From: a virus
Virus record (IMG/VR): IMGVR_UViG_3300042292_001008
Span: 1 to 28,485 of that record
Length of the DNA stretch: 28,485 nucleotides
Strand: one strand, 5' to 3'
Translations under genes and position numbers: made by a program
The notes under the pieces: model-generated
The model's database searches: none
Seen by the model: only the letters and a program-made list of their open reading frames with translations
Told to the model about the DNA's origin: nothing
Part shown: positions 2,385-28,185 of the stretch, piece by piece
Layout of the letters: every line of letters begins with the position of its first letter
Position numbering within the stretch: position 1 is the first letter of the stretch

Positions 2385-2977
2385 AAGAGATTATGAAGAT
2401 AAAATTGAAACAAAAAACAAGAACTGCAATATTTATTATTTGTAAACACAATAGCAATAATTTTTATTTTGATACACAAATACAAATTACAAACTTACAA
2501 CTATTATATCATTTTTCTAACCATTTAAATGTACATAAAAATGTAAAAAGTGTGGTTAGCAATATGGCTGATAAAAATAGATTTGATACTGTAAGATTAA
2601 ATAATATTATTGACAAGTACGAATTACAAGATTATTTAACTAATTTATGTAAAAATGAAATTGAACTTTGTAATATTATTTATAAAAATAAGGGAGGTAA
2701 TAATCAAGATGGTGATGGATGGCTCTATAGACCTCGTGGCTTAGTTGATTTAACTTACAAGGATAATTATAGGTTATTTGGGTTACATGCTAATCCTGAT
2801 AGCATAAACAACGATTTTGATAACAATATTAATTTATTATTGAAGTATTGTGAGTATAATAATATATCTGATAATGATAATTTTACTACAATATTAAATA
2901 AATTTAAAATTAATGAATGGTTACATCAAAAGTTATTTGATGAATTTAATGAAATAGATAATAGGAGAATAATATGA
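2360..2977 (+). CDS. GH19-like protein lacking both catalytic glutamates (probable pseudoenzyme)
   Basis: A protein of up to 205 residues. ATG 2393 (residue 12, MKIKLKQK) is an alternative start that avoids most of the overlap. Residues 102-141 (CNIIYKNK, then GDGWLYRPRGLVDLT, then a G) align with the GH19 core of the next gene (ANFIYNRK, then GDGWKYRGNGLPQLT, then a G). Near the N-terminus, KHNSNNFYFDTQ (29-40) aligns without gaps to KVESSNYRVFRE (30-41) of the endolysin, so the general-acid Glu becomes Asn31 and the second Glu becomes Gln40. The C-terminal WNGGSNGL motif of the endolysin is absent. I infer a diverged tandem duplicate of a GH19 lysozyme-like domain without hydrolytic activity, perhaps peptidoglycan-binding or regulatory. 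It overlaps the endolysin start by four bases (ATGA). Confidence 0.68.
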   Translation: MVQKERYLKEIMKIKLKQKTRTAIFIICKHNSNNFYFDTQIQITNLQLLYHFSNHLNVHKNVKSVVSNMADKNRFDTVRLNNIIDKYELQDYLTNLCKNEIELCNIIYKNKGGNNQDGDGWLYRPRGLVDLTYKDNYRLFGLHANPDSINNDFDNNINLLLKYCEYNNISDNDNFTTILNKFKINEWLHQKLFDEFNEIDNRRII

Positions 2978-3582
2978 ACCAATATGAAATAAGCATTTTA
3001 AATGAACTACACAAACTAAATTACTCACATGATTTAATGGCTAGCATTTTAGCACAGGTAAAAGTTGAAAGTAGTAATTATAGAGTATTTAGAGAAAATT
3101 TAAATTATACTGATGTAAATAGATTATATAATATGTTTAAAAAAAGATTTAAAAACATTGAAGATGCAAGTAAATATTTAAGATCACCTGAAAAATTAGC
3201 AAATTTTATTTATAATAGAAAAGAATTAGGCAATACTACTTTTGGGGATGGATGGAAATATAGAGGTAATGGATTGCCACAATTAACTGGTAAAGATATG
3301 CATAAATTAGTTGGTAATATGATTGGTATTGATTTAGTCAATAATCCAGAATTATTAGGAAATGATATTGATAAAAATACCAAGGCAGTAATAGCATTTT
3401 GTGATATTAAAAATATTAAAAAATGTAGCACGATTGAAGAAGTATCAAAAAAATGGAATGGTGGTAGCAATGGATTATATGAAAGACAAAAAGAATTTCT
3501 TGATGAAAGATTTGAATTATTTATGACAGAAGATTTAAATAAAAGAACTCAAGATTTTAACAAATATTTAATTATGTTTTAA
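2974..3582 (+). CDS. Endolysin, glycoside hydrolase family 19 (chitinase-like lysozyme)
   Basis: A 202-residue enzyme with the marks of phage GH19 endolysins. QVKVES with Glu32 and, nine residues later, RENLNY with Glu41 form the expected catalytic pair. These are followed by LANFIYNRKELGN (75-87), the family core GDGWKYRGNGLPQLTG (91-106), a GIDLVNNPELL segment, and WNGGSNGL-R (161-171). The family hydrolyses the beta-1,4 glycan strands of peptidoglycan. The most common core is YRGRGLIQLTG; here RGR is RGN and the I is P. There is no signal peptide or wall-binding domain, so export would need a holin. It is the last gene before a stem-loop at the convergent junction. The start is set by AGGAG at 2963-2967. 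Confidence 0.88.
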   Translation: MNQYEISILNELHKLNYSHDLMASILAQVKVESSNYRVFRENLNYTDVNRLYNMFKKRFKNIEDASKYLRSPEKLANFIYNRKELGNTTFGDGWKYRGNGLPQLTGKDMHKLVGNMIGIDLVNNPELLGNDIDKNTKAVIAFCDIKNIKKCSTIEEVSKKWNGGSNGLYERQKEFLDERFELFMTEDLNKRTQDFNKYLIMF

Positions 3583-3584
3583 TA

Positions 3585-3640
3585 ATATATGTCAATAACA
3601 TTATTGCTATCGACATATATATACTTATTTTCTTTTTTTA
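3585..3640 (+). terminator. Stem-loop terminator at convergent gene junction
   Basis: ATATATGTC (3585-3593) pairs with GACATATAT (3612-3620), and a nested CAATAA-CA-TTATTG hairpin lies at 3593-3606. On the plus strand the stem is followed by a T-rich tail (3625-3640). It separates the plus lysis cassette from the minus membrane-protein genes. The minus-strand tail is less T-rich, so it probably acts mainly on plus-strand transcripts. Confidence 0.6.
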
Positions 3641-4878: not shown

Positions 4879-7800
4879 CTAAAATTTTATATGAAAATAT
4901 ACAAATTCAGTCGGTTGCATATTATTATGCGGTTGCCCACCACCTACATTATTTGTGTTATATTGATTAGCTCCTGTATCTAAACCCTGCCTATTGCTAA
5001 ACACATCGTTAGCGTCATAATCGTTAAATACATAACCTTGTACATAGTGATTATGACTTGGCATTTGATTAATAGTCAATGTATGTGTTTCAGCACCTGT
5101 AAATTTACCTATACCGTGGCTTGTACTTGCATTTGCTAATACTTTGCCTTGATAATCAGGCACATTGAATGTAGTAGCACTTGATACATTTCCAATTGTC
5201 AAAAACATAGTATGTGTACCTGATTGTGTACCGCTTGTTGCTATATATGTACTAGTAATTAAATTGGCATAACTAGTTGCTAAATTAAATGTATTAGCTC
5301 CTGTTACATTTATCCAATATGTGGTATTAGCAGATAACCCTGTAGGTAATGCACCTGTTGTTGTAAAGTATATTTTTTGTCCTGTAGTTAGCCCATGGTT
5401 AGTTAAGGTGATAACAGCAGGAGTGTTTATTGAAATAGTACAAATACCTTTCTCTGTATTTAATAAATTAAATAATGCAGAATACTCACTACGATTGTAA
5501 CTATTACCATTACATAATAAATAACCACCTATATTTGGTGATATATTTTGTATAATAGTGCCAGTTGGTACATCATTAGCGGTTGTAGGGGTGGGAATAT
5601 TTAATTGTCTAGCAATAACATAGCTATTAACCGCCATAGGTTGCATATTTCCGTTACCAGTTTCCCGAATACTAAAGTTAGTTGGTGATGTTATCGTGAT
5701 GGTATGATATAGCACACTGTTTGGCGTATATGTATTTCCACTATCTGGAGGACATATTGCTGACTCTTGACCTACAAATGCACCAGATGTTTCATTATAC
5801 CAACGAATAGTACCACCACCGCCTCCAGCAGTTCCTTGCCACACCGCAGTTAGTTCGTATGTACCAGCAGAAACAAGTCTTAAAATCCCGGTACTAGAAA
5901 GTGTAATATTACTTCCTAAAAAATTTAATATCTGACTGAATTGCATTCTACGATTTGCATCCCAAGTATTTACCCCAACAGCAGGTTTAACATAAAGATA
6001 TTGACTTACAACACTACTACCCCCCCCAGTAGGTGTACTCCACCCACCTTTTGCATCGAGGTACTTATTAGCCACCCCATCACCTGAAGCAGGTGCAGGG
6101 ACTAAACCTTTCGTACCACCAGAACCACTATCGCCTACAAAGTTATTTAAAATAGCAGTTAAATCATTTACATTCTTAACCCCAGTACCGCCTGATGCGA
6201 TTGGTAATGCAGTTGTCAATTCTATGCTATCAGAATAACCAGTTCTTGTCAACACAGTACCAAGCAGTGTACTATTAGTCTTATCAAACAATACATTATC
6301 AAGAGAATAAAAAGAACCTGTATTGGCTGTTATTTTAGCCAAATTATCAACAGTCAAACTTACCACGTGCGTACCTGATTGAGTGCCACTAGTTGCTACA
6401 AAAATATTTGTAATGTAATTAGCATAAGTAGTTGATATGTTAAATGTACTAGTATTAATTATTGTTACCCAATATGTAGTGGTAGCAGTTATCCCAGTTG
6501 GCAATGCACCTGTAGTTGTAAAATATATCTTTTGTCCATTACTTAAATTGTGATTAGCAATTGTAATAACAGCAGGCGTTGCAATGCTTATTGTAGCATT
6601 TCCAATCGAGGCAGTTGGTAATATCATTGTCGACTTAGAAATATAACAAAAAGCACCAGATGCTATAGTAACCGCTGATGTTACTCTAGATAATGTATAT
6701 ACAGGTGTATCATTAATTCCCATTAACCCCGCAAGTATATTAATTGGTAATGAATTTGTATTATTTGCAAAGGTAACTTGAGCCAATGCATTATTAATAG
6801 TTACACTTCCGATTGTGCTTCTTTCATTAAATAATACTGAACCAGAACCAGTAATTGATACTGTGCCAGCAAAAGTTGAACCTTGGCTATCGGATGAACT
6901 AACTTGTAAATATCCACTACCAGTTTTTGATAATGATGTTGTACTTGAATTATAAAGATAAGCATTTCCGGCACCTGCATGTATAAACGTATTTATATTA
7001 AGCCCAATAACCCTAATACTAGAAGCAGGATTATTTGCTGTAATTGTGCCAGTAAAATTAACTATACCAGATTGTTCTCCGTTTGGTGCTACAATACTAA
7101 TATTTTGTGCAGTAATAATTGTATTCTCAGTATAAGTGCCAGGATAAACTACAATTTGAATACCTACATTACCAGCCAATGTTACCGCCCTACCTAAAGT
7201 TAATACTGGAGTACTTGGTGTTTTGCCATCATTCGTATCAGAACCATTTGGCGATACATAATAAGTATTATTATAGGTAAAAGGTAAATCATTAACATTA
7301 GCAATTCCCAGAGTATTCGCTGAAGTTCTTTTTACCAGTCCCGTTGTTGACAATCCTGTAATTTGGTCTTGTGTAACATTTCCGCCCAATGAGGTATTAT
7401 TATTTGCAATTGTAATGCTCGAATTAGCAAGTTTAGAATTTGTAACTACATTGTTACCAATTGTTAAAGCAAGCGAACCCTCAGCATTTGTTACATCACC
7501 TGTAAAAGCAGGTACAGCGGACGTCGGTAATGTAGTCGTCGGTGTAACTTGTGTACCACTAGCATTAAATACAGATAATTGATTAGCAGTAGGCGTCGCA
7601 CTTGATGAAGTCACAGGATTTGTTAAAGCATTTTGTTTATTATTAAATGTTGTAAAATCAGTATTTGACAAATAACCTGTTTGCGTTGGGCTTGATTGAT
7701 TGATAACATTGTTATATTGTGTTTGTGTCAAATGATAATTTTGGTCGTTGCCATTGCCACCTTGAATACCCGCTAAATTATTATGATACGTAATTAGTGG

Positions 7801-11023: not shown

Positions 11024-11040
11024 ATTTGTCTCCTTAAAAT

Positions 11041-11094
11041 ATAAAAGCCTTTGGGCTTTTATTAGTTATTAATTAATAAATACACCAAAGGCTT
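11041..11094 (-). promoter_or_regulatory. Attenuator-like leader of the major capsid gene (competing hairpins)
   Basis: Two mutually exclusive stems occur on the minus-strand transcript. Stem 1 pairs AAGCCTTTGG (complement of 11085-11094) with CCAAAGGCTT (complement of 11045-11054), 10 bp with a 30-base loop. Stem 2 pairs ATAAAAGCC with GGCTTTTAT across 11041-11062, 9 bp with a four-base loop, followed by TATTTT-like sequence and the AAGGAG of the capsid gene. Stem 1 uses bases needed for stem 2, so the arrangement is that of an antiterminator and terminator. It may instead stabilise the mRNA 5' region. Confidence 0.55.
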
Positions 11095-11124
11095 ATATAT
11101 AATAAGTTATCTTTGCATAAATAT

Positions 11125-11133
11125 ATTATATCA
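11125..11133 (-). promoter_or_regulatory. Extended -10 promoter for the major capsid gene
   Basis: The minus strand reads TGATATAAT, an exact extended -10 element, within the gap after the scaffold stop. There is no good -35 hexamer at 16-18 bases. Transcription would start around 11118 and pass through the hairpin leader into the capsid gene. Confidence 0.5.
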
Positions 11134-11150
11134 TATTTGATAAATAATTA

Positions 11151-19700: not shown

Positions 19701-21722
19701 ATGCCAATAACTAAAGAACAAGAACAAACACAAGCAATAAATACTAATGTAGGAATTAGTTCACCTAATATTAAAACTAATCTTTATGCTTTTGAGTCTA
19801 TGAATAAATTATATGCTCAATTAGGTGAATTTGGTAGCCAAATATCTACTGAGTTTGGACATCAATATGGTAAAGAATTAGCACAAAAACATATATTAGA
19901 AGAGGTTGATAAGGGTGCTAATGGAAATTATAATAGCACAAACGCTATTATGGCTCTTACTCCTGCTGGTAAAGCATATAATCAATTAATGGAACAAGCA
20001 AAAAATACTATAATACCATCTCGTTTAAATGAACAAATTCAAGAACAATATAATACTGTATTAAATAATCCGAAAATTGAAATAAACCATAAAGTACAAG
20101 CATTAGATCAAGGATTAAATAATTTAATTAAACAGCCAAATATTGAAAGTTTAGATCCAAGTGTACAAAATATTATACATGGACAAGTATACGATGCTCA
20201 CCGCAGTATGATAAAACAACAAACTACAATGTTGACTAACCAACAACTTGACTCTACTATTAATGCATTCACTCAAAGTAAAAATAATGCTATCAATTCT
20301 AAAGATATTAATGTTGCTAATAATAATTTGAAACTTGCTTTTGATTCTGTAGATTCAGGAGTAAATGCAGGTTTGATTGATCCAGTAAAAGCAACAGCAA
20401 TGAAATCAGACGCTAAGGTTGAAGTTATAAGTGGATTTGCTATTAGTAATAATATAAATGGTGAACAATTAAAACAGTTTGGTGCTGAAAAAGGCTTAAC
20501 TACAGAAGAAATGAACAAAGTACAATATGCAATTACTGCTGATTTTAATAGAAAACAAACACAAATTAAAGCACAACAATTACAATCAGGCTTTGATTAT
20601 GAACAAAGTAGGGCAAATAGTATTATATCTGGTAAACCAATGCCGTTAGCAAATTATACTGCTGAACAAACTATAATGAATAAACATAATTTTATAGCCC
20701 ATAATCTTTATTATCAAGCAAGTACAGCCAATAGTGATGAGGCAAGACAAGAGTTATTATCAAGTAGTCAGTACCAAGGATTAGACTCAGAAGCAAAAAC
20801 TATTGTAAATTCTAATCTTGGTAAAATACAAAGAGGTAGAACTCGTGTCCCAGATTTATCTATGTATGGCATAGATCATGAAACACCATATATGACAAGA
20901 AGACAAATTGCTCAAGATTTAGATCCAACTAAATTATTTTTCCCAGATGAAATACAAAGATATAGAAATAATTTATCTGCAAACGTAAATTCATATAATG
21001 AAGTAATGAGAGATAGTGAAAAGTGGGGACCAGATAGGCATAGATTACTTGACTATTTTCTAAAAGGTGGTAGTAAAAATAGTGATGGGGATAATGACTC
21101 TAGAGTATATGAAGACCCAACTTATGTTGATGGTAAATTTATTGCGTCTAAACCTACTGGTAAATTTGGTAATGTAGCATTTCAAAGTGAACAAACTCAA
21201 ATATTGGAAGCATTTCAAAACTCTGGGTTACCAGAAGAGTATAGTAATAAAAGTGCAAGGGCAATTTTTGACCATATACAAAAAGTTGGTGATAGCAGAG
21301 GTACATATCAAGATTCAGTAAAAGTATTAAAAGACAGATATGATTATAGTAGTAATCATATTTTACATAAAGGTGATGAAGTAAAATTAAATGAAAATAA
21401 CTATTCAAATATATATAATACAATTTCTTCAAATAAAAATATAAAAAATAGGTTCCCAGATGAGAAAAGTTTTAAAGAATTTATGGATAAAGCAACAATT
21501 GTACCAGATGGAGGCACTGATTCATACTATATTGGTAATAAAGATGGTGATGGTTTACGTCTACCATATAAATTAATTGATACATTACCAATTTCTCCTA
21601 ATACTTCACTAACTAAAAAGATTTTAAAAGCAGGAAGTGGATTTATATCATATGGATCTCAAAATTTAAATTTAGCCACACAATATGCAAAAGATTTAAT
21701 ACAAGGAAATGATAATGAATAA
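19701..21722 (+). CDS. Internal virion protein, gp15-like
   Basis: A 673-residue, largely helical, Gln/Asn-rich protein (MPITKEQEQTQAINTNVGIS start). It lies between a gp14-like and a gp16-like gene, which is the standard order of the T7-type ejectosome. Features such as FESMNKLYAQLGEFGSQIS and the region HETPYMTRRQIAQDLDPTKL resemble helical tubes of gp15-type proteins, but no catalytic motif is seen. AAAGGA precedes the ATG. It overlaps the start of the next gene by eight bases. Assignment is mainly by synteny and composition. Confidence 0.72.
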   Translation: MPITKEQEQTQAINTNVGISSPNIKTNLYAFESMNKLYAQLGEFGSQISTEFGHQYGKELAQKHILEEVDKGANGNYNSTNAIMALTPAGKAYNQLMEQAKNTIIPSRLNEQIQEQYNTVLNNPKIEINHKVQALDQGLNNLIKQPNIESLDPSVQNIIHGQVYDAHRSMIKQQTTMLTNQQLDSTINAFTQSKNNAINSKDINVANNNLKLAFDSVDSGVNAGLIDPVKATAMKSDAKVEVISGFAISNNINGEQLKQFGAEKGLTTEEMNKVQYAITADFNRKQTQIKAQQLQSGFDYEQSRANSIISGKPMPLANYTAEQTIMNKHNFIAHNLYYQASTANSDEARQELLSSSQYQGLDSEAKTIVNSNLGKIQRGRTRVPDLSMYGIDHETPYMTRRQIAQDLDPTKLFFPDEIQRYRNNLSANVNSYNEVMRDSEKWGPDRHRLLDYFLKGGSKNSDGDNDSRVYEDPTYVDGKFIASKPTGKFGNVAFQSEQTQILEAFQNSGLPEEYSNKSARAIFDHIQKVGDSRGTYQDSVKVLKDRYDYSSNHILHKGDEVKLNENNYSNIYNTISSNKNIKNRFPDEKSFKEFMDKATIVPDGGTDSYYIGNKDGDGLRLPYKLIDTLPISPNTSLTKKILKAGSGFISYGSQNLNLATQYAKDLIQGNDNE

Positions 21723-24700
21723 TGCTCCATTTTTATCTAAACCAACTATGGAAGATAATAATAATATGGTTAAAACTGATGAAGTTAAACCATTTTTATC
21801 TAAACCAACTATGGAAAATAATTCACCTAAACCAACATATGAGGCTGAATACGTACCTGCTCCTGTTAAACCTGAATCATATCTTGATAAAATTGGCATA
21901 TGGGACTTGGCTAAACAAGGTATTAAAGATGGATGGGAACAAGGTAAACAAGATGTCAATGTAGAAAAAACAGCAGAACAGTTAGCCTTTGATACTAAAG
22001 AGGCACTAATGGGGGCTAAAGCCTCTGCTATTGGATTTCTAAATATGGTGCCAGGATTTAATGAACCAGTTGTAGATCATGATAATTTAGCATTTCAATT
22101 AGGTAAAGGTGTTACTGATGCTATTGGGTTATTAGTACCAGTAGTTGGAGTTGAGGCTACTGGTGCTAAACTTACAGCAACCGCTCTAAAAGGGGTTACA
22201 GAGGCTCTAGGAGGTGGTGAAAAAGTTTATGAGGCATTGAGTAATAACTTCCTTAATACACTCGTGGTGAAAGGAGCAAGGGCTACTATAGGAGGTGCAT
22301 TATTTGGTTTAGAAGAGGCATATCATAATCAAGCAAATAATAATGTAGTAGATTATGAAAAATCAATAAGAGAAAATGCTTTATTTGGATTGGCAGGTGC
22401 GGGAGTATTTCATTATGGTGAAAATATTTATGCTAAATATATGAATAAAGAATTACCAGATTTTATGAGTAATATAAATAAAATAGATGGTGGTGCAGAA
22501 TATAAAGGTAGCACACTTACTACTGAAAGAGTACCAGATGTAGAACAACCTATTGTAAATGCTGAACCAGTTGCGGGGATTATAACTAAAGAACCAGATA
22601 ATATTCAAGAAATTATAAATAAACCAGAAACAGAGGGTGAGGTTGTAGTTGATAAAATGTTAGAAAAGAAACCACCATTAGTATTTGCTGATGTTAAAGA
22701 TCAATTAAAAGAAGAACTTGGGAATAAATATAAAAAATATGCAAATTATAAAGATAATAAATTATCACCTAAAGTACAAAGTGATTTTGAAAATAGAATA
22801 AATAATTTATTTGAAGAAAAACAAGCAGAAGTAGCAAAATATAATGAACAAGTAGATAAAAACCTTGAACAACAAAGAAAACAAGCACAAAATCTTATTG
22901 CTGAAAATAATGCTAATAAAATAATTAGTCAGCATGGTTCATCAGAAGAAATTTATGCACATGTACAATCACAAAGAATTGCTAGATTAAAAGAATTTGA
23001 TAATGTTTGGGCTAATGCATTAGAAAAACATGGAGTTAAAAATGCAGAAGCAATATTAAGTAATAAACAATTTGAACTGCCAATTATGAAATTAGTTAGA
23101 GGATTTTCTACTGGTAGTAAAGAATTAAATGAAAATCTTATGCCTATTGCTAATGCTATCAATGATTATAATAATCATATATTTCAATCAATGAAAGAAG
23201 TAAATCCAGAAATTAGAGAAGTAAAAGGATATGTAGGTACAGTTACTCATGATAAAAGATTAATTAATAATAATTTAGAAGAATGGGATAAATTTGTTAG
23301 TGATGCAGGATTAATGCAACAACCACTTAGTAAAGAAGAAAAAAAAGAGTTTATAGACTTAATAACTAGAATAAAAAAAACTGCTTCAGAACAATTAAGG
23401 ACTTATGACTTTGCTATGAGACGTTTTAAATTCAATTCACCAGATGCTGAATTTGCATATAATAATCAATTTGGTAATGCTGATACTTTATTTAATAGAG
23501 TAAAAAGCATTGGTGATGTGGCTTCTACAAGAATATCAGCAATTAAAACATTAGGAGCAGATCAAGAATTAACTTTATCAAAAATAGGTCAAATATTAAA
23601 AGATCCTGATGGTGCTCAAAAGATTGCTAATACATTATTCCCAGTAACGCTTGGACATTTTAATAATCAAGCACAAATAATAAATGCAATAAATTTATCA
23701 TCAAAAGCAAATAGATTATTAACTAGTGTGCTAAATCCAAATCTTCAAATCTTTAAATATATTTTTGAAGATATGACAAATAACTTTACTAATGTAATGA
23801 GAAAAAGCAGTATTTTAAATGCAATAAAAGATACTTTTAATTTTAATACTCCTGAATTTGTTAAAGAATTATCATCACTAAATGAATTTGACAAAAGGAC
23901 AATCAAAGGATTGATGAGTGAATTAAAAGTTGCTAATGAAAAAGCAGTAAATAAAGGTATGAATTTTTTTGAAGTTGGTGGTAGTAAAGCAGATAATTAT
24001 GGGAGTTTTTTAGAAAATATTAATTCTAAAATCAATGGTTCACATACAAATGATACTATACTTCGTAATAAAGCAGGCACATCATATGCTACATTGCTTA
24101 GAAATCTAAATAAAAGTGGCAAACTTCAAGAAGAATTCCCAACTATTCCACCTGAATATTTAGAAAAGTTTATTGATAAAGATGGTAATGTAAATCCATT
24201 TCTTAATAAAGAATTACAAGATGCCAAAACAAAACAATATTCAGAAGATATTGCTTCAAAATATATTAAATTTATTGAAGATGTAAATCCAGTATATACA
24301 AAATCAAGTATCATTGCAAGTGCTGATTCAGTTGCCTCATTATTACCTGTTAAAATGACTAGATGGACACAAACAGTTACATCAAGAACAATGCTACCAC
24401 TAATGAAAGAGTTTGCTACTAGTAAAGGACTTAGTAAAGCAGTAGCAGGTGGTAAGTGGGTTATGTATGCCTCTACAATGACTGCAATATCAGAAGCATT
24501 TAGGGCGGTTGATGATTGGATTGATGGTAAAGAACATAAAGTAAATTATAATGACTTAATTAAAGATTTCTTAGCATTTGGCACATTTGGTGGTATGTAC
24601 TGGACTTATAAATTATCATATAGTAAATCAATAGCACTTGGTAAAGCAGGTTACTATGGTACTAAAGCAAGCCTATACGATGATCAATACTCAGATAAAC

Positions 24701-24795
24701 AATTTGAAGATTATATGAAATCAAAAGAAAATATGAAAAATGCAAGTTATATATTTAGAACTTATTGTGCAATTCATGATAAATTTATAAAATAA
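21715..24795 (+). CDS. Internal virion protein, gp16-like (large ejection protein)
   Basis: A protein of 1026 residues when started at ATG 21715; the ATG at 21709 lies only two bases from the AAGG site. The N-terminus has two copies of PFLSKPTME spaced 21 residues. A Gly/Ala-rich hydrophobic stretch follows (about residues 95-185, with FQLGKGVTDAIGLLVPVVG and ATIGGALFGLEEAYH), then a charged coiled-coil region and a long helical body. The C-terminus carries RWTQTVTSRTMLPLMKEF and MYASTMTAISEAFRAVDD, typical of large ejection proteins. No lytic transglycosylase motif of T7 gp16 is visible. It ends three bases before the next promoter. Confidence 0.75.
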   Translation: MNNAPFLSKPTMEDNNNMVKTDEVKPFLSKPTMENNSPKPTYEAEYVPAPVKPESYLDKIGIWDLAKQGIKDGWEQGKQDVNVEKTAEQLAFDTKEALMGAKASAIGFLNMVPGFNEPVVDHDNLAFQLGKGVTDAIGLLVPVVGVEATGAKLTATALKGVTEALGGGEKVYEALSNNFLNTLVVKGARATIGGALFGLEEAYHNQANNNVVDYEKSIRENALFGLAGAGVFHYGENIYAKYMNKELPDFMSNINKIDGGAEYKGSTLTTERVPDVEQPIVNAEPVAGIITKEPDNIQEIINKPETEGEVVVDKMLEKKPPLVFADVKDQLKEELGNKYKKYANYKDNKLSPKVQSDFENRINNLFEEKQAEVAKYNEQVDKNLEQQRKQAQNLIAENNANKIISQHGSSEEIYAHVQSQRIARLKEFDNVWANALEKHGVKNAEAILSNKQFELPIMKLVRGFSTGSKELNENLMPIANAINDYNNHIFQSMKEVNPEIREVKGYVGTVTHDKRLINNNLEEWDKFVSDAGLMQQPLSKEEKKEFIDLITRIKKTASEQLRTYDFAMRRFKFNSPDAEFAYNNQFGNADTLFNRVKSIGDVASTRISAIKTLGADQELTLSKIGQILKDPDGAQKIANTLFPVTLGHFNNQAQIINAINLSSKANRLLTSVLNPNLQIFKYIFEDMTNNFTNVMRKSSILNAIKDTFNFNTPEFVKELSSLNEFDKRTIKGLMSELKVANEKAVNKGMNFFEVGGSKADNYGSFLENINSKINGSHTNDTILRNKAGTSYATLLRNLNKSGKLQEEFPTIPPEYLEKFIDKDGNVNPFLNKELQDAKTKQYSEDIASKYIKFIEDVNPVYTKSSIIASADSVASLLPVKMTRWTQTVTSRTMLPLMKEFATSKGLSKAVAGGKWVMYASTMTAISEAFRAVDDWIDGKEHKVNYNDLIKDFLAFGTFGGMYWTYKLSYSKSIALGKAGYYGTKASLYDDQYSDKQFEDYMKSKENMKNASYIFRTYCAIHDKFIK
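21727..21816 (+). repeat. 27-bp direct repeat in 5' end of gp16-like gene
   Basis: Twenty-seven identical bases occur at 21727-21753 and 21790-21816, a period of 63 bases (21 codons), encoding PFLSKPTME twice. Confidence 0.9.
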
Positions 24796-24797
24796 AC

Positions 24798-24826
24798 TTG
24801 ACATTGGTTGTATGTTATGGTATAAT
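24798..24826 (+). promoter_or_regulatory. Consensus sigma70 promoter reading into ncRNA candidate
   Basis: TTGACA (24798-24803), a 17-base spacer, and TATAAT (24821-24826) are both perfect matches to consensus at the ideal spacing. The predicted start (about 24832-24834) falls exactly at the foot of a 13-bp stem. No coding gene follows on this strand. Confidence 0.85.
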
Positions 24827-24831
24827 ATCTA

Positions 24832-24934
24832 TGTATTTAATATTCCACATTCACTATTTTCTACAAATATGAAAAAATATTAAATACAACGTAATCAGCA
24901 TTAAATGGGCAGTCTGTCTCAAGCTGTCCATTTA
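24832..24934 (+). ncRNA. Candidate structured small RNA
   Basis: Transcription from the consensus promoter would begin with TGTATTTAATATT (24832-24844), which pairs perfectly with AATATTAAATACA (24876-24888) around a 31-base loop. A second stem follows: TAAATGGGCAG (24902-24912) with CTGTCCATTTA (24924-24934), 11 bp including one G-U, with an 11-base loop. No frame longer than ten codons with a ribosome site lies here. No T-run terminator follows the second stem, so the 3' end is unknown. The transcript could continue as an antisense RNA to the convergent terminase gene. Function unknown. Confidence 0.55.
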
Positions 24935-24978
24935 TGATAAAAAATTAACTTACTTACTTACTTAGTTATGCTTGAAAT

Positions 24979-25036
24979 TGATGATGTATTTAATTTTGTA
25001 TAATTGCAACATTAATATGAGGGGAATACATCATCA
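24979..25036. repeat. 12-bp perfect inverted repeat beside terminase stop
   Basis: TGATGATGTATT (24979-24990) and AATACATCATCA (25025-25036) are perfect complements around a 34-base loop. The right arm ends two bases before the terminase TAG (25039-25041). No T-run follows on either strand, so it may be an mRNA 3' stabilising stem rather than a classical terminator. Confidence 0.7.
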
Positions 25037-25038
25037 CC

Positions 25039-26424
25039 CTAAAATTTATTCTTAAAGTTATAACTTTTTTCATAATTAATAACCATATGTCTAATATTAT
25101 TAAACTCCCATTCTTTTAACCCCATAATAAGCGTTCTCATACCATCAGGTGCATGGCTATGTTCATGTCTTATCCTATTATATTTAGTATCGGTTACATA
25201 CCTTTTAATTTCTTCTATCTCCCTACCACATCCTTTAGAATTAAACCGTATACTATGCCACATCCGCCTTATATAATCAATATCTTCTAATAAATCACTA
25301 CTTCTTCTCACAATACGACAATTTAATTCACGGTTCATAATATTAAACCTACTATTACCACTTGTTTGTTCCAACTGCATAGCATCATGCGGTAGGTATA
25401 CTACATAGTTATTTGTGTTGAGGTTAGATAACATTGATTTTATCTCATTAATAATAACTGATATGCTACAATTGCGATAACTATTACTCGCAATAAAATA
25501 TATCTTATCATCAATTAAATGCCCATACCATACCACAGTAGCGTCAGTCATCCCCAAATCTAACCCAATATATAACTTTTTGTTACTACAATACCCAACA
25601 TCTGCCAATATAGGACTAGGATATATAGCACCCTCATCCGCACTATCCCAATCACATAAAAACTCCTGCCTCTTCAAATTCTCATCCATCGGTATAGCGT
25701 CATACTCATCCTGTGTCATTATACCCAAATCAAATACATCTTGCTTCATTACCAACCAATCAGGATACTTATCTGGATTATTTGTTATCATATTATACAA
25801 CTCATACATGTGATTCCTACCCCTCACAGTACTACATATAAACATCCCCCCATTCTTCTCCTTTACCATAGGTAATAAATTCCCATACTTTTCCATCCCA
25901 TTATCCTTGATCAATGCAAACTCATCTAATACTATATTCTTGAACCCTGCACCCGCCTTGTTATCCTTTACCAATCCCTCAAACTTGATCCCACTTATAA
26001 CCTCTTTCGTGTTGAAGTGATAATTTAACTCTAACGGATTACTACTAAACTTACTTATCCCACTAGCAATATCAATTAATTTAAACCCATTGTTCATCAC
26101 ATTTTCTATATATATCTCCCTCACCTGATTTTCAAATGGTGCAAATATACAACTCCTCATCCTACCTATACCACTTATTAACCCATTAACAGCCAATGCC
26201 CTCTCCCTACATAACATCCCATGTTGTAAATGAAACATCAATGTACTCTTACCCAACCTCCTAGCCCATATTAATAATAAATTCTTATACCGATACTCCA
26301 CCTTACCATTAATAATACTACACTCCATCATCCGCCTATACACATCCCACTGATAATCACGTAATATCCTCTTACTTAAATCAGTCGCATCATAGTTGTT
26401 ATTAATACTACTCCTTACCCTCAT
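25039..26424 (-). CDS. terL: Terminase large subunit
   Basis: A 461-residue packaging ATPase/nuclease. Walker A is WARRLGKST (53-61), Walker B is NIVLDE (163-168), and the coupling motif is CSTVRGR (197-203). The nuclease half shows GLDLGMTDA with Asp289, YLPHDAM with Asp347 and HAPDGMRT with Asp427, the acidic residues expected of the RNase H-like fold. It cuts concatemers and drives DNA through the portal. Start is TAATG over the upstream stop. The gene is on the minus strand, apart from the head operon. Its coding strand is noticeably G-rich and C-poor compared with the capsid genes. Confidence 0.93.
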   Translation of the reverse strand: MRVRSSINNNYDATDLSKRILRDYQWDVYRRMMECSIINGKVEYRYKNLLLIWARRLGKSTLMFHLQHGMLCRERALAVNGLISGIGRMRSCIFAPFENQVREIYIENVMNNGFKLIDIASGISKFSSNPLELNYHFNTKEVISGIKFEGLVKDNKAGAGFKNIVLDEFALIKDNGMEKYGNLLPMVKEKNGGMFICSTVRGRNHMYELYNMITNNPDKYPDWLVMKQDVFDLGIMTQDEYDAIPMDENLKRQEFLCDWDSADEGAIYPSPILADVGYCSNKKLYIGLDLGMTDATVVWYGHLIDDKIYFIASNSYRNCSISVIINEIKSMLSNLNTNNYVVYLPHDAMQLEQTSGNSRFNIMNRELNCRIVRRSSDLLEDIDYIRRMWHSIRFNSKGCGREIEEIKRYVTDTKYNRIRHEHSHAPDGMRTLIMGLKEWEFNNIRHMVINYEKSYNFKNKF

Positions 26425-26846
26425 TACTTATTACCACCTAAATTACTCAATAAACTATCCCGTATATTCAATATACCATCACTACTAACTTCCTTACTCA
26501 TCATATTTAATAAATACTTTATACTCTCAATCAAATCCTTGTTACACTTATCCTTACTTAATATTAATAACTTCCTAGGGGCTATTATATTCTCAAAATA
26601 CCGATATACCCCATTTATACCATCCATAAACTCTTTGTCCTCATTTATAATCATCTCATTCTCATAATCATTCATACCCATCAAACTACTAAATACCCAA
26701 GTTTTCTTATCCAACGGGTTTATTAACTTATCCTCTACAAACTCATCTACCACCTTATTATATAACTCTAACTCACTATTTATCTCACCCAAAAATGTAT
26801 AAAATAAATAATTGTACCTTATAACAAATTTTAATTTTTTATCCAT
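26424..26846 (-). CDS. Probable terminase small subunit (by position)
   Basis: A 140-residue acidic, helical protein directly upstream of and overlapping the large terminase gene. This is the usual place for the DNA-recognition subunit. No helix-turn-helix is certain by eye: residues 20-45 (NSELELYNKVVDEFVEDKLI) and the end (ILNIRDSLLSNL) are helical. The first codons lie inside one copy of a 23-bp direct repeat whose other copy contains the upstream AAGG. If it is the small subunit, those repeats could be recognition sites, which is inference. Confidence 0.55.
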   Translation of the reverse strand: MDKKLKFVIRYNYLFYTFLGEINSELELYNKVVDEFVEDKLINPLDKKTWVFSSLMGMNDYENEMIINEDKEFMDGINGVYRYFENIIAPRKLLILSKDKCNKDLIESIKYLLNMMSKEVSSDGILNIRDSLLSNLGGNK

Positions 26847-26871
26847 ATTAATTGTACCTTATAACAAATTT
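26809..26871. repeat. Two 23-bp direct repeats spanning the small-terminase start
   Basis: Bases 26809-26831 and 26849-26871 are identical (they contain TAATTGTACCTTATAACAAA), with a 40-bp period. One copy encodes residues about 6-13 of the putative small terminase; the other is its 5' untranslated region with the ribosome site. Confidence 0.9.
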
Positions 26872-26896
26872 ATGTAAATCTACCTTAGTTGTATAT

Positions 26897-26905
26897 ATTA
26901 TACCA
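26897..26905 (-). promoter_or_regulatory. Extended -10 promoter for terminase operon
   Basis: The minus strand reads TGGTATAAT, an exact extended -10, about 50 bases upstream of the putative small-terminase start. The -35 region is T-rich (AATTTT) rather than consensus. An 18-bp GC palindrome lies a further 45 bases upstream. Confidence 0.5.
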
Positions 26906-26950
26906 CATTTTCACCAAAAAAAATTGAGATGTTTTGACTAGTTTGATTTG

Positions 26951-26996
26951 CCCCCGCAATTGCGGGGGGTACCCCCTCAATATTTCATTAAATATT
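26951..26996. repeat. GC-rich overlapping palindromes plus AT hairpin
   Basis: CCCCCGCAATTGCGGGGG (26951-26968) is a perfect 18-bp palindrome. It overlaps GGGGGTACCCCC (26965-26976), also perfect, so the central G-run can pair with either C-run. AATATTT-CATT-AAATATT (26979-26996) follows. The GC block is the most GC-rich stretch in the window. Confidence 0.9.
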
Positions 26997-27097
26997 AAAT
27001 CATAAGGTACCCCTATGTATATGTACAAGTACATAAGTACATTAGGGCATTATAAATAATTTTTTATAAATAAAAAATAATTTAACTACTATCACGC

Positions 27098-27139
27098 CCC
27101 CTGAAAGGTTGTGAGAATGTAACCAACTGGGGATTTTTT
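27098..27139 (+). terminator. Terminator-like hairpin with T6 tail
   Basis: CCCC (27098-27101) pairs with GGGG (27129-27132), and inner GGTT (27107-27110) with AACC (27121-27124), separated by small internal loops. ATTTTTT follows (27133-27139). It points on the plus strand, toward the early genes, and could block read-through from upstream. Confidence 0.4.
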
Positions 27140-27176
27140 ATCATAAATGAAAGTCACAAATGAATAACTTTACCAT

Positions 27177-27206
27177 AATTCACTATTACTATTATAATAG
27201 TGAATT
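27177..27206. repeat. 12-bp-stem palindrome
   Basis: AATTCACTATTA (27177-27188) is the exact complement of TAATAGTGAATT (27195-27206) with a six-base loop; ACTATTATAATAGT inside it is also palindromic. It is an operator- or cruciform-like site. Confidence 0.85.
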
Positions 27207-27240
27207 GTAAAAATTACCAAATTTGTAAAAATCTTGTCAA

Positions 27241-27300
27241 GTTTTTTTTTATTTTTTTGCATTTTTTTGCTTTTTTTAACTTTTTTTAACTTTTTTTGAC
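27241..27300. other. Helically phased T-tracts (predicted intrinsically bent DNA)
   Basis: Six runs of seven to nine T (27242-27250, 27252-27258, 27262-27268, 27271-27277, 27281-27287, 27291-27297) recur at about 10-bp steps. A-tracts in phase with the helical repeat are established causes of strong static curvature. Confidence 0.85.
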
Positions 27301-27331
27301 CCCAAACCGAGCCACTCAAAAAATACGCGAT

Positions 27332-27466
27332 TTTTATTCACAAATCACAATCGATTTTCATATTTGATAAATTTTTCAAGTTTTTCAAGTTTGAAAAATT
27401 TCAAAAAATGTTCATAGAAAGGCTTTTTTTTCAAATATGATAATAATTTGTGATTTGTGAATAAAA
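27332..27466. repeat. 135-bp nested inverted repeat (origin candidate)
   Basis: Outer arms TTTTATTCACAAATCACAA (27332-27350) and TTGTGATTTGTGAATAAAA (27448-27466) are perfect 19-bp complements. After a 7/7 internal loop come TCATATTTGA (27358-27367) and TCAAATATGA (27431-27440). Inside, AAATTTTTCAA (27369-27379) pairs with TTGAAAAATTT (27391-27401), with tandem TTTTTCAAG copies. It follows the bent-DNA tract. Confidence 0.9.
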
Positions 27467-27627
27467 TTCGGATTAATTTATTTATACGATTTATTCTTAA
27501 TAATTATTATATATTATATACTATATATATACTATATAAATAAAAAGTAGTATTTTAAATAGTATATATTTATATATTAAATAAGTACTTCTCAGCAACC
27601 GAACAAAAAAAAAAAAAGCAGATTGCA

Positions 27628-27663
27628 TTTTTCAAGTATGATAAATTTTTCATATTTGAAAAA
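27628..27663. repeat. Second copy of the TTTTTCAA(A/G)TATGA motif as an inverted pair
   Basis: TTTTTCAAGTATGA (27628-27641) and TCATATTTGAAAAA (27650-27663) are complementary over 14 bp apart from one G-T position, with an eight-base spacer. An identical-type motif TTTTTCAAATATGA occurs at 27427-27440 in the larger repeat. It sits just upstream of the first early promoter. Confidence 0.85.
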
Positions 27664-27670
27664 CAACCTA

Positions 27671-27700
27671 TTGACAACCATATCAAAAGTATGATATAAT
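27671..27700 (+). promoter_or_regulatory. Early promoter P1 (consensus sigma70, extended -10)
   Basis: TTGACA (27671-27676), an 18-base spacer and TGATATAAT (27692-27700) give a perfect -35 and extended -10. It directs transcription to the plus-strand early genes through a leader of about 270 bases holding a CAATAATATTATTG palindrome (27819-27832). Confidence 0.85.
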
Positions 27701-27891
27701 AATATATTTTACTAAAAAATATATTAATAAATTAATAAAATTATAATAAAAATAGTATCAATGAACTGATAAAATAAACAATAATTTACTTACAACTAAA
27801 AAAATATAAATAATATAGCAATAATATTATTGTGTAAAATCAATAACTTATAAGAATAATACAAATAATTACAATTATTTTATATAAATAC

Positions 27892-27921
27892 TTGACATTT
27901 TATAATTGCTTATGTTATAAT
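27892..27921 (+). promoter_or_regulatory. Early promoter P2 (consensus sigma70, extended -10)
   Basis: TTGACA (27892-27897), an 18-base spacer and TGTTATAAT (27913-27921) again match consensus fully. It starts about 50 bases ahead of the first early gene and is the second of two tandem promoters. Confidence 0.85.
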
Positions 27922-27978
27922 ATTGTATTAGTTGAGCAAATCAAGTAATTAATAAATAATTTTAAATGGAGTAATAAA

Positions 27979-28185
27979 ATGATCGAGTTGAGATGTTTAG
28001 ATAATAATAATGATTTGAATGATGATGACATCATTCACAACCTAAAAAATAAAATAATTATGCTAAATGATTTTATAATTATTAATAAAAATAGTAATGA
28101 CTATGTTTGTAAAGTAGTTCATTATGATTATTTAAATGATTTTAGTACTGAGCAGTTGTTAAAAATTGAGTATAGAAAATTTTAA
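27979..28185 (+). CDS. Early hypothetical protein 1
   Basis: A 68-residue acidic protein (MIELRCLDNNNDLNDDDIIHN start) without recognisable motif or membrane segment. It is the first gene after two tandem consensus promoters. ATGGAGT at 27967-27973 provides the ribosome site. The leader at 27960-27983 is repeated almost exactly before the next gene (28180-28203). Early podoviral genes of this size commonly encode host-takeover proteins, but nothing specific can be read here. Confidence 0.7.
   Translation: MIELRCLDNNNDLNDDDIIHNLKNKIIMLNDFIIINKNSNDYVCKVVHYDYLNDFSTEQLLKIEYRKF

Follow-up and report, generated by a model that had tools for sequence, protein, structure and literature searches.

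The window analyzed here is the whole of one virus record, 28,485 bases long, from an AT-rich phage (27% G+C). It contains a tailed-phage structural gene set comprising a tail fibre, a portal, an HNH-like protein, tail proteins, endolysin-like genes and a large terminase. Two adjacent plus-strand genes (2360-2977 and 2974-3582) share the endolysin family phrog_181, the match of the first being partial, and are likely a tandem duplication in which one copy has diverged. The gene order between positions 4879 and 26424 is unusual: the portal and head genes are on the minus strand, and the tail genes are on the plus strand between them and the terminase, which is again on the minus strand. The terminase matches Terminase_6N at its cut-off and belongs to the phrog_2 large terminases; its nuclease-like residues D289, D347 and D427 are conserved, and the usual place of the small subunit is occupied by a 140-aa gene. 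In the relatives that we looked at, the gene after the terminase is on the same strand as the terminase, whereas here the terminase faces the end of the plus-strand tail/internal-protein operon, whose last gene had no match in family searches. The candidate RNA described below sits in the convergent gap between the stop codons of these two genes (24796-25038, 243 bases). The coordinates of all features are given in Table 1.

Table 1. Promoters, hairpins, predicted RNA and flanking genes in the 28,485-base window.
Feature	Position	Strand	Remarks
Last gene of tail/internal-protein operon	21709..24795	+	Stop codon 2 bases 5' of the -35
Sigma70-type promoter TTGACA-N17-TATAAT	24798..24826	+	Full consensus, extended -10 (TATGG)
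TRTGNTATAAT copy	24816	+	Sole copy of the seven without a gene behind it
Predicted transcription start (G)	24833	+	7 nt 3' of the -10, standard -10 to +1 spacing
Predicted small RNA, ~105 nt	24833..24940	+	3' end inferred
Hairpin H1	24832..24888	+	13-bp perfect stem at predicted 5' end; smaller hairpin inside 31-nt loop
Hairpin H2	24903..24933	+	Highest GC content among the gap's hairpins; probably a weak bidirectional terminator or the RNA 3' end
Hairpin H3	24979..25036		12-bp perfect stem just past terminase stop codon
Terminase large subunit	25039..26424	-	Convergent with candidate RNA
TRTGNTATAAT copy	26907	-	Before terminase operon (unit start 26846-)
Second full-consensus promoter	27671..27700	+	TATGA-TATAAT, upstream of plus-strand genes at 27979
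Third full-consensus promoter	27892..27921	+	TATGT-TATAAT, directly upstream of gene at 27979
TRTGNTATAAT copies	27690, 27911	+	Before plus-strand genes (unit start 27979+)
TRTGNTATAAT copy	14966	+	Before plus-strand tail operon (unit start 15020+)
TRTGNTATAAT copy	14954	-	Before minus-strand head operon (unit start 14925-)
TRTGNTATAAT copy	11135	-	Before capsid-position gene (unit start 11023-)

The phage represents a lineage without a close relative in the collections that we searched (IMG/VR, GenBank phages and GTDB genomes). Among GenBank phages, the closest relatives of the terminase and portal are ~21-25% identical and come from phages of Vibrio, Pelagibacter, Alteromonas and Stenotrophomonas, while the capsid-position and internal-protein genes had no matches; at the DNA level, the same phages gave only matches of ~60 bases that were AT-rich or promoter-like. 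Searches of IMG/VR with the terminase, portal, capsid and internal protein, from which near-identical records were possibly omitted, found no close relative, and neither did a search of GTDB genomes with the terminase. The matches of a terminase profile search were only 22-27% identical, and at the loci found in this way the terminase and portal were the only genes of the window with a match.

The initial annotation had described a perfect sigma70 promoter with a 17-base spacer, one of only three in the window, that fires into about 240 bases with no gene. All of these points were confirmed. The -35 (TTGACA, 24798-24803), the 17-bp spacer and the -10 (TATAAT, 24821-24826) are exact, with a TG one base 5' of the -10. 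Promoters that match at 12 of 12 positions occur at 24798, 27671 and 27892, all on the plus strand and all with an extended -10 of the form TATGN; dinucleotide shuffles contained 0.148 such sites on average, and none of 1000 shuffles reached three. Reading through the plus-strand frames in 24833-25038, we found the longest to be 10-12 codons, without a ribosome-binding site.

The longer motif TRTGNTATAAT is present in seven copies in the window, against 1.7 expected, and all seven are intergenic, that is, within the 6.4% of the window that lies outside the gene set used; these statistics are descriptive, because we defined the motif after looking at the sites. Six of the copies precede transcription units, so the copy at 24816 should also drive something. 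Only three (24816, 27690 and 27911) have a TTGACA -35, and the other four, including the terminase promoter (TGTGG-TATAAT at 26907), have no good -35. Judging from its distribution, TRTGNTATAAT looks like the promoter signature of this phage, and by sequence the promoter at 24798 shares its class with the pair before the genes at 27979. The pattern suggests that the phage has two promoter classes, early and late: the three TTGACA-bearing sites would be host-polymerase promoters used early, and the sites lacking a -35 may be used later or with the assistance of a factor.

Three hairpins follow the promoter at 24798. The arms of H1 (TGTATTTAATATT/AATATTAAATACA, at 24832-24844 and 24876-24888) form the 13-bp perfect stem that had been reported, but the proposal that transcription begins exactly on its first base needs a slight refinement: because the likeliest +1 is G24833, the stem starts at or one base before +1. 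Shuffling the gap 20,000 times produced a stem of 12 bp or longer that began within 24830-24835 only twice. The reported second stem corresponds to H2, which contains one G-U pair where the opposite strand would carry an A-C mismatch. H3 had been missed; it belongs either to the terminase mRNA, as its 3' UTR, or to the 3' part of a longer form of the candidate RNA. DNA-pattern searches for H1 and for the H2 loop gave zero matches, and the H1 arms do not recur in the window in clear excess, as the copies of a repeated operator would.

The predicted fold of 24832-24960 has an energy of -28.5 kcal/mol, compared to -11.9 +/- 2.7 for shuffled sequences (z = -6.1), and none of 200 shuffles equalled it. 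The minus strand folds almost equally well (-26.5); for the whole gap the z-scores are -5.0 on the plus strand and -2.0 on the minus strand, with slightly different end points, which points to a mild folding advantage of the plus strand, as does the G-U pair of H2. By composition-adjusted energy the candidate ranks about 12th among all 110-nt segments of the 28,485 bases, so its predicted fold is strong but not unique against this background. The leaders behind five of the six other TRTGNTATAAT promoters fold weakly; a stem at +1 is thus not a general trait of the phage.

The 3' end of the candidate RNA is unsure because the U-tract tails of H2 score poorly (1.8 and 1.7, one on each strand), although the stem itself is good. 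When we searched IMG/VR for the H2 stem pattern (AAATGGNCAG...CTGNCCATTT) we obtained 49 loci, representing 34 distinct hairpins on unrelated viral contigs. Most of these (23 of 34) are located between predicted genes, six of them convergent, and many start 8-20 bases past a stop codon. Since hairpins of this pattern are mainly intergenic and often placed just after a stop codon, the role of a terminator would suit H2, and it is built like one, though probably a leaky one.

Several other sites in the window have unusual structure or repeats. In the leader of the capsid-position gene (11024-11135, minus strand), promoter and ribosome-binding site are separated by a strong hairpin, AAGCCTTTGG...CCAAAGGCTT, which is among the strongest folds in the window. 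A gene-free, AT-rich stretch of 1.1 kb with poly-T runs (26847-27978) contains long inverted repeats (44 nt, 86% complementary, 27328-27371/27427-27470) and GC-rich hairpins at 26946-27055 (-42 kcal/mol on the minus strand), and is possibly a replication origin or packaging region. A match to mir-3012 in this stretch (27159-27220) was far under the gathering score, and we regard it as a chance hairpin. An exact 23-bp direct repeat, TAATTGTACCTTATAACAAATTT, at 26809-26831 and 26849-26871, occurs on either side of the start of the gene that occupies the small-terminase position and could be a binding site for packaging or autoregulation. The 17-mer CATTTATGATAAAAAAT is identical in the tail of the candidate RNA (24929-24945, plus strand) and upstream of the terminase operon (27149-27133, minus strand); a looser form of it is in no excess in the window.

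We propose, with moderate confidence, that the gap is occupied by an independent small-RNA gene of the phage, transcribed by the host RNA polymerase into a stable, untranslated RNA of ~105 nt. That a structured, promoter-driven RNA has gone unannotated here, as the initial annotation proposed, is well supported at the sequence level. Host RNA polymerase would initiate at about G24833, presumably early in infection. The first bases of the RNA would be locked in the 12-13 bp stem of H1, which may protect the 5' triphosphate against degradation. Transcription would then stop, perhaps incompletely, at H2, leaving the stable RNA. Its likeliest job is regulatory: the RNA would be present from the start of infection and could act in trans, by pairing with phage or host RNA or by binding protein. 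A pairing scan of the RNA against the translation starts of the window's genes gave nothing above a shuffled RNA. As a side effect or second role, transcription together with H2 and H3 may keep apart the late operon and the terminase operon, which converge here. A more ambitious version of this proposal, which we consider doubtful, is that the RNA from this gap represents a new sRNA family of phages, expressed early, sealed at the 5' end and made by the host polymerase, that controls the late switch or terminase expression or rewires host RNA. If the small RNA is real, the phage sets an early RNA against its packaging genes. Phage small RNAs are seldom annotated because gene callers pass over them; through the grammar of its promoters, even one genome can point to such an RNA when a motif found ahead of the other main transcription units is also found ahead of a gap without a gene.

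The poor U tract of H2 and the uncertain 3' end make serious rivals of two other readings, in which the hairpins are mRNA ends or the transcript is a leaky antisense RNA. According to the first, which we rate as possible though on the unlikely side, H1, H2 and H3 close the 3' ends of the two convergent operons, acting as two-way terminators or mRNA 3' stabilizers, and the RNA itself has no function; the promoter would be incidental, weakly used or the relic of a lost gene. The setting fits this, in that convergent transcription units flank the gap, the window's other convergent gap (3583-3624) likewise has a hairpin, and six of the seven perfect stems of at least 11 bp in the window are in non-coding gaps. 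The good folding of both strands is also what strand-symmetric hairpins would give, and stems of the H2 type are mainly intergenic in unrelated phages. However, termination needs no full-consensus, extended -10 promoter, and everywhere else in the window the motif heads genes. The position of H1, on the start site and upstream of H2, also argues against a termination zone, as do U tracts that are poor on both strands.

The other rival, which we think improbable, is that transcription from 24798 crosses leaky hairpins into the opposite-strand terminase genes and represses them early on, either through collision of polymerases or through antisense pairing, with the transcript possibly ending at a plus-strand terminator-like site at 27098-27138. 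Antisense control of the terminase had been suggested in the initial annotation, and the geometry permits it: the RNA and the terminase gene are read towards each other. The promoter at 24798 is also closer to consensus than the terminase promoter, H2 and H3 lack U runs, and at 27098-27138 a plus-strand hairpin is followed by ATTTTTTATC with no plus-strand gene ahead of it. Non-coding antisense transcripts are known, moreover, from the structural region of Pseudomonas phage LUZ100 (PMC10134795). Yet ~100 bases separate the end of the predicted 105-nt RNA from the terminase stop codon, and because the RNA ends before the coding sequence, antisense pairing could come about only by read-through or by overlap with the terminase 3' UTR. 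The site at 27098-27138 folds no better than its shuffles (z = -0.24), and two or three strong hairpins between a promoter and the gene that it is meant to repress would be an odd design.

A packaging RNA of the phi29 type, forming part of the DNA-packaging motor, had also been suggested, but it shares with the candidate only a position beside a packaging gene, and we reject it in practice as having almost no chance of being correct, given that Rfam searches gave nothing credible, whether run over the whole window at the gathering score or over both gaps at permissive E-values, that the predicted fold is a row of hairpins rather than the packaging-RNA junction, that the terminase, with its conserved nuclease-like residues, is not a gp16-type ATPase as in phi29, and that the 140-aa gene fills the usual small-subunit position.

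Comparison with better-known systems places the stand-alone small RNA that we propose among RNAs of familiar kinds. Self-standing phage RNAs that are read against a neighbouring gene are known, namely OOP, aQ and sar (PMC12197685). Lambda OOP RNA, like aQ and the P22 sar RNA, is short, has its own promoter and runs opposite to a neighbouring phage gene (PMC12197685), but we found no sequence kinship between these RNAs and the candidate, and OOP pairs with cII mRNA whereas the candidate is predicted to stop short of the terminase coding sequence. Prophage anti-sRNAs of the AgvB type, which act in trans, are likewise phage small RNAs that are not antisense to their neighbour (PMC12197685); the candidate differs in that the pairing scan above singled out no partner for it. 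In LUZ100, gene-free transcription similarly runs against late structural genes (PMC10134795), although those transcripts were demonstrated by sequencing, the candidate RNA is a prediction, and the two phages are unrelated. Two-way terminators between convergent phage arms are also known (PMC9022519), for example the bidirectional terminator of Enterococcus phage Sigurd, which like the hairpins here lies between two convergent units (PMC9022519); the present gap differs in its weak U tracts and in carrying, besides one such hairpin, two others and a full-consensus promoter. Because OOP, aQ and sar, the LUZ100 transcripts and two-way terminators are all known, the candidate RNA would belong to a kind that is already known in phages.
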